NCBI RefSeq assembly: GCF_002797715.1
Contig: NZ_PGFF01000001.1
Location: forward strand, 2,379,304 to 2,443,303
DNA length: 64,000 nucleotides
Direction of reading: 5' to 3'
Origin: Diaminobutyricimonas aerilata
GTDB lineage: Bacteria; Actinomycetota; Actinomycetes; Actinomycetales; Microbacteriaceae
The notes beneath the pieces are model-generated. The model saw only the letters and a program-made list of their open reading frames with translations. It searched no databases and was not told the origin of the DNA. Of this stretch, positions 33,656 through 41,359 are shown piece after piece (position 1 is the first letter of the stretch; each line of letters opens with the position of its first letter). The translations under genes were made by a program, and so were the position numbers.

Positions 33656-34972
33656 ATGACCGACTGGAAGTTCGAGACCAAGCAGATCCACTCGGGCGCC
33701 GCGCCCGACCCGGTGACGAACGCCCGCGCCACCCCGATCTACAAGACGACCTCGTACGTCTTCAACAACGCCGACCACGCGAAGAACCTCTTCGCCCTCG
33801 CGGAGTTCGGCAACATCTACACCCGCATCATGAACCCGACGCAGGACGTCGTCGAGAAGCGCGTCGCCGCGCTCGAGGGCGGCACCGCCGCTCTCGCGGT
33901 CGCCTCCGGCTCGGCCGCCATCACCTACGCGGTGCTCAACATCGCCCAGGCCGGCGACCACATCGTCTCGTCGAGCTCGATCTACGGCGGCACCTACAAC
34001 CTCTTCAAGTACACGCTGCAGAAGCTCGGCATCGAGGTCACCTTCGTCGAGAACCAGGACGACGCCGAGGAGTGGCGTCGCGCGGTGCGTCCGAACACGA
34101 AGCTGCTGTTCGCCGAGACGATCGGCAACCCGCGCATCAACGTGCTCGACATCGAGCTCGTCGCGGAGGTCGCCCACTCGAACGACCTGCCGCTCATCGT
34201 GGACAACACGATCGCGACGCCGTACCTGATCCGTCCGTTCGAGCATGGTGCCGACATCGTCGTGCACTCGGCCACGAAGTTCCTCGGCGGGCACGGCACG
34301 GTCATCGGCGGCGTCCTCGTCGACGGCGGCAAGTTCCCGTGGTCGCAGCACGTCGACAAGTTCCCGGGGCTGACCGAGCCCGACCCCTCGTATCACGGGG
34401 CGAGCTACACCGGTGTGCTCGGCGACGCGATCGCCTACGTCATCAAGGCGCGCGTGCAGCTGCTGCGCGACACGGGCGCGGCGCTCGCCCCCGACAGCGC
34501 GTTCACGCTGCTGCAGGGCATCGAGACGCTCAGCCTGCGCATCGAGCGTCACGTGCAGAACACCCAGGCGATCGCCGAGTGGCTCGAGGGCCACGACGAC
34601 GTCGCGTCGGTGAACTACTCGGGCCTTCCCTCGAGCCCCTGGTACGAGACGGCGAACAAGTACGCTCCCCTCGGCGTCGGCGCGGTGCTGTCGTTCGAGC
34701 TCAAGGGCGGCGTGGATGCGGGTCGCGCGCTCGTCGAGAGCGTCACCCTGTTCAGCCACCTGGCGAACATCGGCGACGTGCGCAGCCTGATCATCCACCC
34801 CGCGTCGACGACCCACTCGCAGCTCACCCCGGAGCAGCAGCTCACGGCCGGCGTCACGCCGGGCCTCGTGCGCCTGTCGGTGGGACTGGAGAACGTCGAG
34901 GACCTCAAGGCCGACCTCGAGGCGGGCTTCACCGCGGCGCGCAACGTGTCGCGCGCGGCCGCCTCGGCCTGA
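33656..34972 (+). CDS. metY: O-acetylhomoserine sulfhydrylase
   Basis: MetY makes homocysteine from O-acetylhomoserine and sulfide (or methanethiol to methionine) with PLP. The 438-residue length fits the long MetY subgroup of the Cys/Met metabolism family. [26 protein letters not shown] opens the active site and the PLP lysine lies in [13 protein letters not shown] (Lys ~208). Another family signature is [18 protein letters not shown]. It is followed by metX in the same direction, 109 bp downstream, with a strong hairpin between them. Confidence 0.96.
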
Positions 34973-34980
34973 TCCGCTCC

Positions 34981-35020
34981 CAGGGCCCCGACCCCGCGTC
35001 CGCGCGGGGTCGGGGCCCTG
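34981..35020. terminator. 18-bp hairpin between metY and metX
   Basis: Bases 34981-34998 pair perfectly with 35003-35020 around TCCG (GC-rich stem GGGCCCCGACCCCGCG plus flanks). There is no T-tract, so it may work as a GC-hairpin terminator or stabilise the metY mRNA 3' end. A second, shorter hairpin (GCCGGGC/GCCCGGC, 35044-35062) lies just before metX. Confidence 0.7.
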
Positions 35021-35081
35021 TGCCGTTCCGCACGTAACACTGCGCCGGGCTTCCCGCCCGGCCCGACATACTGGCTGCACC

Positions 35082-36287
35082 ATGGATTGGCAGACCCCCG
35101 AGGACGCCGTGCCGTCGGCGTTCGTCACCGAGGCGAACGTGCGCTCCCTGCTCGGCAAGCCCCCGGCGACCGGCGCCTGGCGCGAAGGCGATCCCGTCGG
35201 CGACCGCCGCTTCGCCGCGCTCGGTCCGCTCGCCCTCGAGGGCGGCGGCCGGCTCCCCGCCGTGCGCCTCGCATACGAGACGTGGGGCGAGCTCGACGCG
35301 GACGCCGGCAATGCAGTGCTCGTGCTGCACGCGCTGACCGGCGACAGTCATGTCACGGGTGCGCCCGGTCCGGGGCATGCGACCGGCGGCTGGTGGCCGG
35401 ACCTCGTCGGACCGGGTCGCGCGATCGACACCGACCGCTTCTTCGTCGTGGCGCCCAACATGCTGGGCGGGTGCCAGGGCTCGACCGGTCCCGCGTCGTT
35501 CGCCCCCGACGGCCGGGAGTGGGCCGCCCGGTTCCCGTACCTGACCATCCGCGACCAGGTGGCGGCGCAAGCCGCGCTCGCCGACGCGCTCGGCATCGAG
35601 CGGTGGGCGGCGGTCGTCGGCGGTTCGATGGGCGGCATGCAGGCGCTCGAGTGGGCGGCGGGGCTCCCCGACCGCGTGGAGCGGCTCGCCGTGCTCTCCG
35701 CCCCGCCGTCGTCGACGGCGGACCAGATCGCGCTCAACTCGGTGCAGCTCGAGGCGATCCGGATGGACCCGACGTTCCGCGACGGCGACTACTACGACGC
35801 CCCCGACGGGGAGGGACCGCACCGCGGACTCGCGCTCGCCCGCCGGATGGCGCTGCTCAACTACCGCGCGCCGGCGGAGCTCAACGACCGGTTCGGCACG
35901 TCGTGGCAGAGCGGGCTCAGTCCGCTCGGCGGCGGTGGTCGGTTCGCCGTCGAGAGCTACCTCGACTTCCACGGCAACAAGTTCACCCGCCGGTTCGATG
36001 CGAACAGCTACATCACCCTCGTCGACGCCATGAGTTCGCACGACGTCGGTCGGGGTCGCGGCGGCGTGGAGGCCGCGCTGCGTTCCGTGACCGCCCGCAC
36101 GCTCGTGGTCGGGATCGACTCGGACCGGCTGTTCCCCGTCTCGGGGCAGCACCGCATCGCCCGCGCCATCCCGGGCACCGTGCATGGGGACGAGGCGGTC
36201 GTCATCGAATCGCCGTTCGGGCACGACGGGTTCCTCATCGAGCACGCGGCGGTCGGCACGCGCCTGTCGGAGCTGCTCGCCTACTGA
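35082..36287 (+). CDS. metX: Homoserine O-acetyltransferase
   Basis: MetX acetylates homoserine with acetyl-CoA, supplying MetY. The 401-residue alpha/beta hydrolase has the nucleophile serine in VVGGSMGGMQALEWA (Ser ~182) and VLHALTGDSHVTG. NMLGGCQGSTGP follows, and a His-containing SPFGHDGFLIEH lies near the C-terminus. Serine succinyltransferase activity cannot be excluded by eye, but the MetX-MetY pair favours acetyl transfer. The CATACT sequence 10 bases before the ATG could be a -10 box. Confidence 0.95.
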   Translation: MDWQTPEDAVPSAFVTEANVRSLLGKPPATGAWREGDPVGDRRFAALGPLALEGGGRLPAVRLAYETWGELDADAGNAVLVLHALTGDSHVTGAPGPGHATGGWWPDLVGPGRAIDTDRFFVVAPNMLGGCQGSTGPASFAPDGREWAARFPYLTIRDQVAAQAALADALGIERWAAVVGGSMGGMQALEWAAGLPDRVERLAVLSAPPSSTADQIALNSVQLEAIRMDPTFRDGDYYDAPDGEGPHRGLALARRMALLNYRAPAELNDRFGTSWQSGLSPLGGGGRFAVESYLDFHGNKFTRRFDANSYITLVDAMSSHDVGRGRGGVEAALRSVTARTLVVGIDSDRLFPVSGQHRIARAIPGTVHGDEAVVIESPFGHDGFLIEHAAVGTRLSELLAY

Positions 36288-36351: not shown

Positions 36352-37026
36352 ATGGGGAACCCGAACCCATCGGTCGCTGACCGGGAACACATCAGAGTGA
36401 GCCTCGTCGACGACCACCGGCTCGTGCTCGACGGCCTCGAGGCGCGATTGCGCGACGCCGATGGCATCGAGCTCGTCGCGGTCGAGACGACGTGGTCGCA
36501 GCTCGTCGCGCACTCGCGCTTTCCCGGTGACGTGACCGTGCTCGACCTGTATCTCGACGACCACATCCCGGTGACCGCGAAGCTCGGCACCATCGCCGCG
36601 GCGGGGGGCCGCGCCGTGGTGATCAGCAGGCACGCGGATCCGGGCGCGGTCGCCACGGCCCTGCGCGCCGGAGCGAAGGCGTTCGTGCCGAAGACCGCCG
36701 GAGTCGACGACCTCCTGGCCGCGATCCGCTCGGTCGCCGACGGCGGCGAGTATCTCGCGCCGGAGCTCTCGGAGCGCGTGCAGGCCGCCGGCAGCACCGC
36801 CGACCCGAACCTCGGACGCCGAGAGCAGCGCGCGCTGGTGCTCTACGCCCGCGGACACAACGTGCGCGAAGTGGCGGCCGAGATGGGCACCACCGAGGAG
36901 ACGGTGAAGTCGTACATCAAGCGTGCCCGACGCAAGTACCGAGAGGTCGGCGTCGACATCGGCACCCGCATCCTGCTGCGCCGGCACGCCGTGCGCGAGG
37001 GATGGCTCGCTCCCGACTCGCGCTGA
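36352..37026 (+). CDS. NarL/FixJ-type response regulator (orphan)
   Basis: The 224-residue protein has a receiver domain (~13-130) with acidic pair DD (~20-21), phosphoacceptor Asp in TVLDLYLDD (~65) and conserved Lys in FVPKTAG (~114). A LuxR-type HTH (~152-200, LYARGHNVREVAAEMGTTEETVKSYIKRARRKY) follows. It is a clear paralogue of the regulator at 40691-41359, sharing the LVDDHR start and the VG-DIGT-ILLR-HAVREGWL tail pattern. No kinase gene is adjacent; the nearest is the kinase at 38.2 kb. The start is ATG 36352; a longer frame upstream overlaps metX. Confidence 0.92.
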   Translation: MGNPNPSVADREHIRVSLVDDHRLVLDGLEARLRDADGIELVAVETTWSQLVAHSRFPGDVTVLDLYLDDHIPVTAKLGTIAAAGGRAVVISRHADPGAVATALRAGAKAFVPKTAGVDDLLAAIRSVADGGEYLAPELSERVQAAGSTADPNLGRREQRALVLYARGHNVREVAAEMGTTEETVKSYIKRARRKYREVGVDIGTRILLRRHAVREGWLAPDSR

Positions 37027-37054
37027 GCGCGCCCGGCGCCCAGCCGGGCCGCTC

Positions 37055-37060
37055 TACGAT
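37055..37060 (+). promoter_or_regulatory. -10 box for leaderless 37067 lipoprotein gene
   Basis: TACGAT, exactly 6 bases before the ATG at 37067. Confidence 0.6.
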
Positions 37061-37066
37061 GACGGG

Positions 37067-37960
37067 ATGCGCGCACGACCGGTCTCCCTGACGGGCGCGA
37101 TCGCCGTGACCGTCCTCGGGCTGCTCACGGGGTGCGGCGCGCCTGCCGAGGTCGTGCCGCCGCTCGACGGGCTTCCCGACGGCGTGAGTGTCGAGGTCGT
37201 GCAGAACCGCAGTGACGTCGTGCCCCGACGACTGCAGATCAAGGTCGTCAACGACCTCGACGTGCCGCTCGAGGTCAACTCGGTCACCTTCGATTCCGCC
37301 GCGTTCGTCGAGCCGGCGGTGTGGGAGCGCGGCACGACGGTGCCCGCCGGCACCGCGCGGGATCTGCCGGTGGAGCTGCCGGAGGCGAGTTGCGCGACCG
37401 AGGAGGCCCGCGCCTCCGTCGCCATCTCGTTCGAGGTCGAGGGGCGCCGTGCCGTCGCGACCGTCGAGCCGGCGGACCCGCTCGACCAGTTGCCGGAACT
37501 CACCCTCGCCGACTGCGTGCGCGCCGACGTGGAGCGCGCCACCGAGGTCGAGCTCGGACCCCTCGTGGGAGGCGGCCCCGGCGTGCCCGCCCTGCTCGAG
37601 GTGAGCGCCCGCCCGACCGGAGACACCGAGGCGACCCTCGAACGCATCCGTTCGACCGTGCTGTTCACCGTGCTCGACGCGAGCGGGGCACGCGCGACCG
37701 ATGTGGCGCTCGCCGACCTGCCTCAGCCCACGCCGGCGGAGGGATCGACGGAGGATGACGCCACGCGACGCTGGGCCGTGCCGATCGCGCCTTCGCGGTG
37801 CGACGCGCACGCGCTCGCCGAGGACAAACAGGGCACGCTGTTCGGCTTCGACGTGACGACGACCCGCGGAAGCGCGGTCTACGAACGGGCGGCCTCGGAG
37901 GAACTGCGTCACGACCTCTACGCGTTCTACGCCCAGTACTGCGGCCTGACGGGCCCTTAA
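37067..37960 (+). CDS. Putative lipoprotein between the two response regulators
   Basis: The 297-residue product has a lipoprotein signal ending LLTGCGAP, then a beta-rich extracytoplasmic domain (VVNDLDVPLEVNSVTFDSAAF, an Ig/CARDB-like pattern) with cysteines in EASCATEE, LADCVRAD, PSRCDAH and YCGLTGP. No family recognised. Its place between an orphan regulator and a kinase cluster could make it a sensory accessory, but this is inference. A GC-rich hairpin follows the stop. Confidence 0.8.
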   Translation: MRARPVSLTGAIAVTVLGLLTGCGAPAEVVPPLDGLPDGVSVEVVQNRSDVVPRRLQIKVVNDLDVPLEVNSVTFDSAAFVEPAVWERGTTVPAGTARDLPVELPEASCATEEARASVAISFEVEGRRAVATVEPADPLDQLPELTLADCVRADVERATEVELGPLVGGGPGVPALLEVSARPTGDTEATLERIRSTVLFTVLDASGARATDVALADLPQPTPAEGSTEDDATRRWAVPIAPSRCDAHALAEDKQGTLFGFDVTTTRGSAVYERAASEELRHDLYAFYAQYCGLTGP

Positions 37961-37968
37961 ACGGAGCC

Positions 37969-37992
37969 GGGGCCGCGCGATCACGCGGCCCC
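37969..37992. terminator. GC hairpin after the 37067 lipoprotein gene
   Basis: GGGGCCGCG (37969-37977) pairs with CGCGGCCCC (37984-37992) around a 6-base loop, 8 bp after the stop codon. No T-tract. Confidence 0.55.
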
Positions 37993-38093
37993 TGGCCGAT
38001 CCCCCGATACGGGTCGCGTCGAGACGCTTCCCCCAGTGCCGTGTCCGGGTTCCGGCACCGTTCCGGTCCTCCCCGCTAGGTCGGTGAGGCCCG

Positions 38094-38142
38094 GAACATG
38101 ATTCTGTGTGGCTCCACCGTGGTGGATCGCCCCTCTTGTTCC
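38094..38142. promoter_or_regulatory. Inverted repeats upstream of the two-component operon
   Basis: GGAACA (38094-38099) and TGTTCC (38137-38142) are inverted copies. Between them CCACC-GT-GGTGG (38114-38125) is a near-perfect palindrome. They lie in the ~255-bp gap before the histidine kinase gene and are plausible operator sites, for example for the regulators encoded nearby. A hexamer GATAAC (38203-38208) lies nearer the kinase start. Confidence 0.4.
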
Positions 38143-38254
38143 GAGTAGAACTGTACCGGCCGTTCCACCCCGCGGGGAGCCGGGGTTACCCCCACTTCTG
38201 GTGATAACTGTCAGAATGGGTGCGGCGTTGCGGACAGGGGGATCCTCGAACGGC

Positions 38255-39418
38255 ATGGAACTGATCACCAGAGAGCGTGACCGACTGCTCCACCGCACCT
38301 CACGGGTGTACGGGTTGAGCTTCGCGGTGGTGTCGTTGCTGTGCCTGGTGATCCCCGGCGCGGTCGACACCACGGCGCTCGTGCTCGCCGCCCCCTTCTA
38401 CGTCCTGCTCGGCGTCGCGTTCTGGCGGATCGGCGCGGCGACCTCCTCCGCCTGGATCCTCACGGCCGCCGCCTCCGGCCTGATCGCCGTCGTGCTCACG
38501 ACCCTGCTCTCGGCGACGCCTCCGGAGGCCAACGGCATCACGGCCGTCATGCAGCTCGCCGCCGGGTCGCTCGGCGCGCTCGCGGCCCCGCTCACCGTCA
38601 GCCCGCGCCGCATCGTCGTGCTCGTCGGACTGTTCGTGCTCATCGCCGGAACGACCCTCATCGCGACGTGGGACCTGCAGGACCCGCTGCGCACCGCCGC
38701 TCTGCTCGCCCTCGGCTGGGGCCTGCCGACGGTCATCGGCCTGTGGGTGTGCGCGGCCGTGCCGCGGGCGGCGAAGCGCATCGGCAGTATCGGACGCGCA
38801 CACCGCGCGGAGCGGCAGGCGAGCGAGCTCGAGGCGCAACGCCGTCAGGGCGCACGGCTGCTGCACGACACGGTGCTCGCGACCCTCACGCTGCTCGCCC
38901 ACTCCGGCGTCGGCGTCTCCCCCGAGGCGCTGCAGCAGCAGGCGGGCGACGACGCCCGACTGCTGCGCCAGCTGCGGCTCGGGGGCACGCCCGTGCCGCC
39001 GCCGACGAGTCCCGTGTCGACCGAGCCCGTCGAAGAGACCGTGCTCGGCACGACCCTCGAGTCGGTGAAGCAGCGATTCGGGCGGATGGGCCTCGAGGTC
39101 AGTTGGCACGGCACCGGGCAGGTGCTGCTGCCGAGCGACGTGCTCGACGCATTCCTGCTGTCGCTCGCCGAGTGCCTCGAGAACGTGCGCCGCCACTCCG
39201 GGGTGACGCAGGCGCACGTGACGATCACCGACGACGAGACCACGGTGCGCGCGCTCGTGACCGACTCCGGCGTCGGATTCAGCCTCGACGGGGTCGAGGA
39301 GCACAAGCTGGGCTTCAAGGAGTCGGTCGTCGGCCGGTTGCGCGAGGTCGGCGGCAACGCCCGCCTGTTCTCGGCGCCGGGCCAGGGCACCACCGTCGTG
39401 CTGGAGGTACCGCGATGA
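38255..39418 (+). CDS. Sensor histidine kinase (six-TM, NarL-type)
   Basis: The 387-residue protein has six predicted membrane helices (~20-168) and then a cytoplasmic kinase core. The phosphoacceptor His is in GARLLHDTVLATLTLLAHSG (His ~204), as in HisKA_3 kinases. The N box is LAECLENVRRHSG, the G1 box VTDSGVGFSL and the C-terminal G box PGQGTTVVLEVPR. It lacks a large extracellular domain, so it probably senses the membrane or a partner. The ATG at 38255 is chosen; 38216 (13 codons longer) is possible. It overlaps the next gene as ATGA and forms an operon with it and the 40691 regulator. Confidence 0.92.
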   Translation: MELITRERDRLLHRTSRVYGLSFAVVSLLCLVIPGAVDTTALVLAAPFYVLLGVAFWRIGAATSSAWILTAAASGLIAVVLTTLLSATPPEANGITAVMQLAAGSLGALAAPLTVSPRRIVVLVGLFVLIAGTTLIATWDLQDPLRTAALLALGWGLPTVIGLWVCAAVPRAAKRIGSIGRAHRAERQASELEAQRRQGARLLHDTVLATLTLLAHSGVGVSPEALQQQAGDDARLLRQLRLGGTPVPPPTSPVSTEPVEETVLGTTLESVKQRFGRMGLEVSWHGTGQVLLPSDVLDAFLLSLAECLENVRRHSGVTQAHVTITDDETTVRALVTDSGVGFSLDGVEEHKLGFKESVVGRLREVGGNARLFSAPGQGTTVVLEVPR

Positions 39419-40686
39419 GCTTCTCCCGCCCCGACGAGAACACCCTCGGCGCGCCCATCACGCGCAGCGGCCGCCGCGCCACGGAGGTCGCCCGCCGGTT
39501 CGCCCGCCCGGGCACCGCGCACCGCGGCAGCCTCGGCACCACCTTCCTCGCCGCGGGCGCCGCGATCGTCGTCGCGATCCGCCTGCTCTACGGCTTCGCC
39601 TGGTTCGTCGTCTACTGGGACGAGTACCCCGTGCCCCTCGCGGCCCTCTCGGCGTGGGCGGTGCTGCTCGCCGTGAGCATCGCCGCGGTCGTGCTCTTCC
39701 GGGTGACCGGCGAGCGGATGGCCGACTGGATGTTCGGGCTCTTCCTCGCCGCACTCGGCGGAGCGGTCGCCCTCGACCTCATCGCCATCTGGGGACTGCA
39801 CGACGTCGGACGCTACGCGACCGCCGCCGTGAGCGCCGGGATGGTGCTGCTGCTCGTGCTCACCCTCCGCTCCTCGGGCGAGATCATCGCCGCCGCGGGC
39901 GCCATCGGGCTCGCCCTCGCCGTCGCCATGGCGGTGAACACGCGGCCGCTCGTCGAGCACCTGGCCCAGCAGATCAGCACCCTCGCGTTCGCGGTGCTGC
40001 CCGCCGTGATCGGCGTCGTCGTCGTCCGCGGGTTCCGCCGCATGGTGCGCATCGAACTCGACCGCGTGCTCGTGCAGAGCACCGTCTCCGCCCCGCGCTT
40101 CGCGGTCGGCATGCTCGCGTCGGAGGAGCTCGCCCGGCTCGACCTCGACGCCGAGAAGCTGCTCGACTCCGTCGCGAACGGCGAGGTGGCGCTCCCCCTC
40201 GACCCGCGCACCGCATCCGTGGCCGCGTCGCTCGCGACCGAGCTGCGCCTGCACCTCATCGAGGGCCGCCGGGAGACCTGGCTCTACCACGCCATCACCG
40301 AGTCGGGAATGCTCGGCCAGTCGGTGACCCTCACCGACCCGTCGAGCCTCGCCGGACTGCTCGATCCGTCGCAGCGCGACGGTCTGCTCTCCGCCGTCTG
40401 GCTCGTCATCAGCGACGGCGCGACGACGAACCCCAACCGCTCCGTGCACATCACCCTCGGCCCGGTGCGGCCGACCGGTCGCCCCGACCGCCGCATCCTC
40501 GTGCCGATCGTCATGAAGACGACGGGACTCCCCCGCAATCGTGTCGATCCGGCGGTCTGGGATGCGCTGGGTAAGGTGGGGCCATACGACGACTCGACCG
40601 AGGATGCGAGCCTCCGCGTGCAGATCGACTGCGCCGTGGACAGCCCCGCCGAGGTGGCCTCGACCCACAGCTCCCAGGGAAGGTAA
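39415..40686 (+). CDS. Six-TM kinase-like protein, probably a degenerate histidine kinase
   Basis: The 423-residue protein has about six membrane helices (~45-230) like the preceding kinase, then a cytoplasmic region. A helical pair (EKLLDSVANGEVAL, then ASVAASLATELRLHLIEGRRE) looks like a dimerisation domain without an obvious phosphoacceptor His-Asp. DGLLSAVWLVISDGATTNPN occupies the place of the ATP-binding N box, but the Glu and Asn residues that bind Mg-ATP are not in register, and no G1/G2 boxes follow. I infer a pseudokinase or sensor subunit. It is coupled by ATGA to the kinase gene and lies 4 bp before the regulator gene. Confidence 0.75.
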   Translation: MSFSRPDENTLGAPITRSGRRATEVARRFARPGTAHRGSLGTTFLAAGAAIVVAIRLLYGFAWFVVYWDEYPVPLAALSAWAVLLAVSIAAVVLFRVTGERMADWMFGLFLAALGGAVALDLIAIWGLHDVGRYATAAVSAGMVLLLVLTLRSSGEIIAAAGAIGLALAVAMAVNTRPLVEHLAQQISTLAFAVLPAVIGVVVVRGFRRMVRIELDRVLVQSTVSAPRFAVGMLASEELARLDLDAEKLLDSVANGEVALPLDPRTASVAASLATELRLHLIEGRRETWLYHAITESGMLGQSVTLTDPSSLAGLLDPSQRDGLLSAVWLVISDGATTNPNRSVHITLGPVRPTGRPDRRILVPIVMKTTGLPRNRVDPAVWDALGKVGPYDDSTEDASLRVQIDCAVDSPAEVASTHSSQGR

Positions 40687-40690
40687 GCAC

Positions 40691-41359
40691 ATGGCAGATC
40701 AGCCGCGCATCCGTCTGGCCCTCGTCGACGACCACCGCATGCTGCTCGGCGCGCTCACGGAGTGGATCCGCGGCGCGGCCGACGACATCTCGATGGTCGC
40801 CGCCGTGGCGACGTGGCCCGAGCTGCTGACCCATCCCGAGTTCCCGGTCGACGTCGTGCTGCTCGACCTCGACCTCAAGGACAACATCCCGGTCGCCCTC
40901 AAGATCTCGACGCTCAAGACGACGGGCGTGAAGGTCGTGCTCATGAGCACCTACTCGGAGCCGAACGTGGTGCGCGAGGCGCTCGCCGCCGGCGCACTCG
41001 GCTACCTCGTCAAGAGCGAGGACGCGAGCATGATCGTCGAGGCCATCCGCGCCGCCTACGCGGGCGAGTCGTTCGTGTCGGCCGAGCTCGACCTCGCCCT
41101 CAACGCGAACGACGTCGGCGGCTCGCCGAAGCTCAGCGCGCAGGAGCGACGCGTCATGGCGCTCTACGGCGGCGGCGAGCCCGTGAAGGCGGTCGCCTAC
41201 CAGCTCGGGATCTCCGAGGAGACGGCGAAGAGCTACCTCAAGCGCATCCGCGAGAAGTACCGGGTCGCCGGCTTCGACGTCGGCACGAAGGTCGCGCTGC
41301 GCAAGCGCGCCATCCAGGACGGCATCCTGCTCGAGACCGGCCAGCCGCGCGACTTCTGA
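40691..41359 (+). CDS. NarL/FixJ-type response regulator
   Basis: The 222-residue protein has a receiver with DD (~13-14), phosphoacceptor Asp in VVLLDLDLKDNIP (~59) and Lys in YLVKSED (~108), then a LuxR HTH (VKAVAYQLGISEETAKSYLKRIREKY). As third gene of the kinase operon it is the likely partner of that kinase. The tail VGTKVALRKRAIQDGILLE aligns with that of the orphan regulator at 36352. Start ATG 40691, preceded by GGGAAGGTAAG. Convergent with an MFS gene 15 bp away. Confidence 0.94.
   Translation: MADQPRIRLALVDDHRMLLGALTEWIRGAADDISMVAAVATWPELLTHPEFPVDVVLLDLDLKDNIPVALKISTLKTTGVKVVLMSTYSEPNVVREALAAGALGYLVKSEDASMIVEAIRAAYAGESFVSAELDLALNANDVGGSPKLSAQERRVMALYGGGEPVKAVAYQLGISEETAKSYLKRIREKYRVAGFDVGTKVALRKRAIQDGILLETGQPRDF

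Follow-up and report, generated by a model that had tools for sequence, protein, structure and literature searches.

A predicted histidine kinase-pseudokinase pair inherited with a NarL-type response regulator in Microbacteriaceae

The window analyzed here (the whole stretch of 64,000 nucleotides from Diaminobutyricimonas aerilata) encodes, side by side, a membrane histidine kinase (HK), a kinase-derived membrane protein without catalytic residues (PK) and a NarL-type response regulator (RR2), which are inherited as a block. From sequence and structure prediction, we estimate with a probability of roughly 0.7 that HK is the sole catalyst of this system and PK its non-catalytic sensing and allosteric subunit within one membrane complex. 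Block inheritance, the recurrence of such cassettes and two natural fusions of a live with a dead kinase make PK very probably a built-in partner of HK; other possibilities are that PK binds RR2, or that it senses and reports alone.

Five genes follow metY and metX on the + strand. Gene starts were chosen by hand, HK being taken from the ATG at 38255, and the features in window coordinates are the following:

36352..37026, + strand: RR1, orphan NarL-type response regulator and RR2 paralogue, with all five receiver key residues present
37067..37960, + strand: lipoprotein of unknown family with an LLTGC lipobox, an optional neighbor outside the core
38176..38209 (core 38185-38203), + strand: upstream element, candidate operator or promoter element of the HK-PK-RR2 operon
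38255..39418, + strand: HK, six-TM sensor histidine kinase of the HisKA_3/DesK type
38864-38866, + strand: H204 codon, phosphoacceptor position of HK
39182-39184, + strand: N310 codon, N box residue of HK
39415..40686, + strand: PK, predicted six-TM pseudo-histidine kinase, with an ATGA overlap with HK
40027..40272, + strand: PK residues 205-286, predicted cytosolic helices in place of the DHp hairpin, within the most conserved stretch (207-333) and without a conserved His
40276..40644, + strand: PK residues 288-410, predicted degenerate CA domain without N, D or G boxes or ATP lid
40691..41359, + strand: RR2, NarL-type response regulator with 73-93% identity in the family and invariant receiver key residues

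The HK and PK genes share four bases, as seen in 119/140 loci, and the NarL-type regulator which a sequence-only reading of this DNA had placed after them is RR2 (40691-41359). Upstream of the trio, metY and metX (33656-36287 in the window) are found in almost all family loci, and HK begins just 12-30 bp past metX in several of them, so that in some species these genes may be co-transcribed. The lipoprotein gene was found in some relatives only and evolves fast (dN/dS 0.3-0.76).

HK carries a HATPase_c domain (Pfam search) and six TM helices, the last of which is long and continues into the DHp. The H, N, D and G boxes which define a HisKA_3/DesK-type kinase occur together in this protein, with H204, D337, G339, G341 and G378 present in 129/129 homologues and N310 in 128/129, which bears out the earlier description of a six-TM kinase with all catalytic boxes. 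The closest named relative is MacS of MacRS (NCBIfam NF047322, E 4e-22); the identification of HK as MacS was ruled out, its score being 78.9 bits against an NCBIfam cut-off of 300. Phosphatase-competent HisKA_3 kinases of the NarX type usually have a Gln at H+5 (HDxxxQ). At this position HK has Ala209 (window 38864-38881 for H204-A209), at least 90% conserved among homologues, and the enzyme may thus be without ordinary phosphatase activity.

PK had likewise been described from the sequence as a six-TM protein with traces of a kinase fold and no phosphoacceptor His, a description with which the structural model and 131 homologues agree. The AlphaFold2 model, run with 59 natural sequences (mean pLDDT 90.3), predicts six TM helices, also visible in the hydropathy profile, followed by two cytosolic helices (233-254 and 264-286) and an alpha/beta domain. 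In VIA-align, residues 288-410 aligned almost all to histidine-kinase CA domains at Z 8-9.8 (HprS 9.8, PhoQ 9.0, VanS 8.9, DosS 8.9, DesK 8.5), a middling range (8-10), although kinases account for almost every row in this region; the superpositions had an rmsd of about 3 across about 110 residues. Designed helical proteins among the other top rows were set aside, as they cover the TM part. A Foldseek search of the PDB had no match below E 0.001, with kinases among the top ranks, while PDB sequence searches returned no match to PK and the Pfam and NCBIfam searches no significant model match. Profile-profile comparison of PK with HK gave a probability of 86.5 (E 4.6e-6), and of 74.9 (E 2.6e-5) with profiles from larger alignments, values that are helped by the hydrophobic composition of such membrane proteins. 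Together, the profile match and the structural alignments indicate that the kinase ancestry of PK is more than chance.

The catalytic residues have gone. No His is conserved between residues 205 and 256 (at most 5/131 homologues at any column), the N box has disappeared (Asn in at most 10/131 at any column of 326-340), the DxGxG motif of the D box occurs in 0/131 homologues and the G2 box is also lost. An intact ATP-binding lid and a phosphoacceptor His were looked for in the protein starting at 39415 and are absent across all 131 homologues, and the structure prediction that had been suggested for this protein keeps the kinase CA fold (pLDDT 90) with its catalytic residues lost. With neither phosphoacceptor His nor ATP-binding boxes, PK does not qualify as a functional histidine kinase; with kinase fold and ancestry retained, it is, as judged from sequence and model, a kinase-derived pseudo-histidine kinase which has lost every catalytic part. 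Its conserved stretch 207-333 includes FRRmVQ.ELDRVLVQSTVSAPR, ASEELARLDL and ATELR.hLIEGRRETWL.HA.

Derivation from a kinase through loss of catalytic residues would also fit a decaying HK duplicate with little function, an explanation which is scarcely tenable. Among 150 family genomes, PK occurs in 105 and RR2 in 106, the single genome with RR2 but no PK having an assembly that is 77% complete and in which RR2 lies where a contig ends; PK is thus never lost where RR2 persists in adequately assembled genomes. In the same species pairs, dN/dS is 0.04-0.37 for PK and 0.03-0.25 for HK, so that purifying selection is equally strong on PK and HK in the pairs compared. High conservation of the cytosolic stretch and the recurrence of homologous pseudokinases in other cassettes also argue against decay, and PK as a decaying pseudogene was ruled out by dN/dS and co-retention with RR2. 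The family genome contigs were obtained with a profile query built on a 17-row alignment. The synteny check proposed for other Microbacteriaceae showed the HK-PK-RR2 trio intact and linked to metYX in nearly all loci examined, and the whole block is missing from small-genome relatives. The great majority of named relatives are Microbacteriaceae (Salinibacterium, Rhodoglobus, Glaciihabitans, Frigoribacterium, Microcella, Cryobacterium), and the few metagenome bins titled otherwise (e.g. Acidobacteria) are probably mislabelled. PK of the window type (PK1) was not found outside the family by single-protein queries in the order, which for that reason are weak evidence of absence. Some relatives have second cassette copies whose regulator is divergent from HK-PK (L085, L088, L089 and L091), and in one 86% complete genome HK and PK are in pieces (L093:6812-9274), probably through assembly frameshifts.

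The same genome as PK1 contains two more cassettes of a kinase, a pseudokinase and a regulator. The first, HK2-PK2-RR, lies at about 665-668 kb (L235:4699-7971; PK model match E 5.7e-30) and the second, RR3-HK3-PK3, at about 751-754.5 kb (L236:2964-5984), again with an ATGA overlap. PK2-type proteins occur in 78/150 family genomes, some of them without PK1, and the gene order HK-PK2-RR was found in 20/20 loci examined. The PK3 type extends further, to 41/149 order genomes, 15/65 genera and two further families of the class; HK lies directly upstream of PK3 in 30/30 order-level loci, in most of which the regulator is ahead of HK, and is adjacent or fused to it in the class-level loci. PK3 and PK1 are related by their profiles (probability 96, E 1.6e-9) and share an E..[LI]R..I.GRR helix before the CA remnant, and in a tree the regulators of all three cassettes form one branch among the NarL-type regulators of the genome. 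Duplication of an ancestral cassette of a live and a dead kinase is the simplest reading of these data, although independent origins are possible.

Two natural fusions bear directly on the relation between the partners. One uninterrupted reading frame in a single-contig genome of another genus of Microbacteriaceae (L279) joins a kinase (59-427) to a pseudokinase (445-743), and another in a different family of the class (L274) joins a kinase (64-423) to a pseudokinase (455-745), each frame having about 700 residues. These two independent events are a strong, if indirect, indication that live and dead kinase work within a single complex. Both fall in the PK3 subfamily, and it is by extension from there that we infer a complex for PK1. 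Such pairs, several to a genome, probably represent a large and unnamed class of two-component systems of Actinomycetes, in which obligate pairs of a live and a dead kinase would let two membrane sensors feed one catalytic center; on this same reading, the class has been missed so far because no domain model recognizes the dead partner.

The fusions and the strict adjacency to HK in every cassette type also make it very unlikely that PK is an independent sensor signaling to an unlinked kinase, with the operon a mere convenient grouping, even though a role as orphan regulator toward its kinase has been described for RocA, a pseudokinase of similar architecture (PMC7028121, PMC6635533). Another explanation is that PK is mainly an RR2-binding subunit, acting as phosphatase, buffer or scaffold, with HK contact secondary. 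Ala209 of HK, in place of Gln, would leave room for another protein to supply the phosphatase, and the extreme conservation of RR2 would suit a protein with more than one partner. This role is nonetheless unlikely, as the HDxxxQ motif is absent from the PK hairpin, the fusions link PK with HK and not with a regulator, and a survey of HisKA_3 pseudokinases speaks against phosphatase activity as their general role (PMC12632262).

Upstream of the trio and beyond the lipoprotein gene, a close paralogue of the regulator had been noticed from the sequence; RR1 is indeed 41% identical to RR2, comes nearest to it among the 17 other response regulators that an RR2 query detects in the genome, and belongs to a clade sister to RR2 (97/99; joint node 96/93), for which the bootstrap is not fully settled. 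In the 150-genome sample, all RR1 genes found (26/26) sit 3-6 kb from RR2 and none was found elsewhere. It had been suggested that receivers sharing sequence and tails might be served by one kinase. The C-terminal DNA-binding domains are indeed alike, and the part of this suggestion that concerns the receivers did not hold. Receiver residues in alpha-1 and beta5-alpha5 set kinase specificity, and these differ consistently between RR2 (DDHxMLLGALTEWIR, VKSEDA..IVEAI) and RR1 (DDHrLvlDGl, pKtes..L..AI), so that a finding which had been named as counting against a shared kinase is largely borne out and such sharing is unsupported by sequence.

A branched system, in which HK would serve both RR1 and RR2, is compatible with a PK complex and is encouraged by the close paralogy and constant linkage of the two regulators and by the window RR1, which keeps the five receiver key residues, hence is no pseudo-receiver, and could possibly be phosphorylated. 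We regard it as possible, though doubtful: besides the specificity residues, the RR1 receiver diverges fast (mean identity of 54% in matched species, versus 88% for RR2; 75% and 96%, respectively, for the DNA-binding domains), and key receiver residues are lost in 6/39 distinct RR1 sequences, with no such loss in RR2 (n=122; one copy truncated). The divergence, the losses and the differing specificity together favor for RR1 a role as partner at the DNA level, similar to BldM-WhiI, over shared phosphorylation. One RR1 copy (L051:5951-6604) has its phosphoacceptor Asp replaced by Gly and the conserved Lys by Arg, and is a pseudo-receiver regulator.

A conserved element precedes HK. A motif search of width 20 in 93 non-redundant metX-HK regions found it in 60/93 upstream regions (log-likelihood 428, versus 67 for shuffled regions), mostly in one orientation and 40-120 bp ahead of HK, with the family consensus GGTGtgGCACCCCCA.TTg.GGTGcCA (short form GCACCCCCA-TT-GGTG). 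The copy in the window (38176-38209, core GTTACCCCCACTTCTGGTG at 38185-38203) is the sole strong match there (12.8; next 3.6), and the element may be a response regulator site or a promoter element. In a genome scan covering 1.2 of 3.49 Mb, 7 of the 8 best sites fall outside the interior of coding regions, versus a mean of 3.1 (maximum 6) for permuted matrices; for the top 12 sites the contrast (8, with up to 9 for permuted matrices) fails to convince, and permuted versions of the wide matrix scored as high as real matches. The scan yields candidate targets, and no regulon is claimed from it. In the 1.2 Mb scanned, further weak sites precede whiB-like (L340:907-925), cardiolipin-synthase-like, secreted GH76, DUF4190 and DUF6459 genes, and another (L358:115-133) precedes a small gene which we take to be DUF3117-like; regulation shared with the HK operon is possible for the DUF3117-like and whiB-like genes. 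A motif upstream of RR1 was dropped, as it is possibly metX coding sequence.

The model proposed here starts from the observed gene block, degeneration, conservation and constraint, paralogous cassettes, natural fusions and upstream element, and adds to them a putative binding, complex geometry, phosphotransfer, direction of control, role of RR1 and signal or ligand. HK and PK would be two subunits of one membrane sensor complex, in which HK would autophosphorylate H204 and from there phosphorylate its cognate regulator, RR2, at D59. PK, which is predicted neither to bind ATP in the usual way nor to carry phosphate, would contribute a second six-TM sensory domain and, with its conserved cytosolic helices, act by packing on HK as a heterodimer or as (HK)2(PK)2 and switching the kinase on or off, so that two membrane inputs would give one output. 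The conserved upstream element probably also lets RR2 regulate the operon that encodes it, and RR1, a second and locus-bound regulator, would join at the DNA through similar sites or mixed dimers with RR2 and not as a competitor for HK. Should such pairs turn out to be obligate complexes, a whole set of actinobacterial systems would depart from the homodimeric kinase of the textbooks, with the natural fusions offering single-chain material for structural and phosphotransfer work on a kinase with its pseudokinase.

The architecture had not been recognized as a described system; this holds for the family in the literature searched, and the principle itself is known from FasBCA and RocA-CovS. In a search that covered mostly the open literature, no description of such live-dead kinase pairs in Actinobacteria was found. 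In Caulobacter, DivL is a pseudokinase controlling a partner kinase, CckA, as proposed here for PK; we know of no kinase-pseudokinase-regulator gene cassette of the HK-PK-RR2 kind in that system. His-less HisKA_3 domains have been counted at 0.3% (56 of 16,025) in a survey (PMC12632262), and PK-type proteins, which match no Pfam model, would be missed by such counts. In Corynebacterium glutamicum, a ChrS pseudokinase variant without CA domain alters signaling through the paralogous HrrS system; this allele arose by frameshift in laboratory evolution and does not represent a conserved gene found in nature (PMC9491836). BldM and WhiI of Streptomyces, two orphan atypical response regulators forming homo- and heterodimers, are a model for RR1 and RR2, although no kinase or pseudokinase locus is involved (PMC4125116).

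The closest parallels come from streptococci. FasBCA of group A Streptococcus, like HK-PK-RR2, consists of two adjacent membrane histidine kinase-like genes and one response regulator; FasB and FasC form a heterodimer, their interaction having been detected by two-hybrid, and FasC has been proposed to be a pseudokinase (PMC12675982). FasC, however, needs its His H246 (PMC12675982), and PK has none, while FasA is ComE-like and RR2 of the NarL type, a comparison made by description and not by sequence. RocA, with six putative TM helices, a degenerate kinase region and a dispensable His, binds and modulates CovS/CsrS (PMC7028121, PMC6635533), and PK resembles it in its six TM helices and degenerate kinase region. 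RocA is, however, described as an orphan regulator (PMC7028121, PMC6635533), whereas PK is locked in an operon with its kinase and recurs in several paralogous cassettes. Without the His required by FasC, and operon-locked where RocA is not, PK is filed with neither; by analogy, HK-PK-RR2 would work like FasBCA or RocA-CovS while being neither of them.
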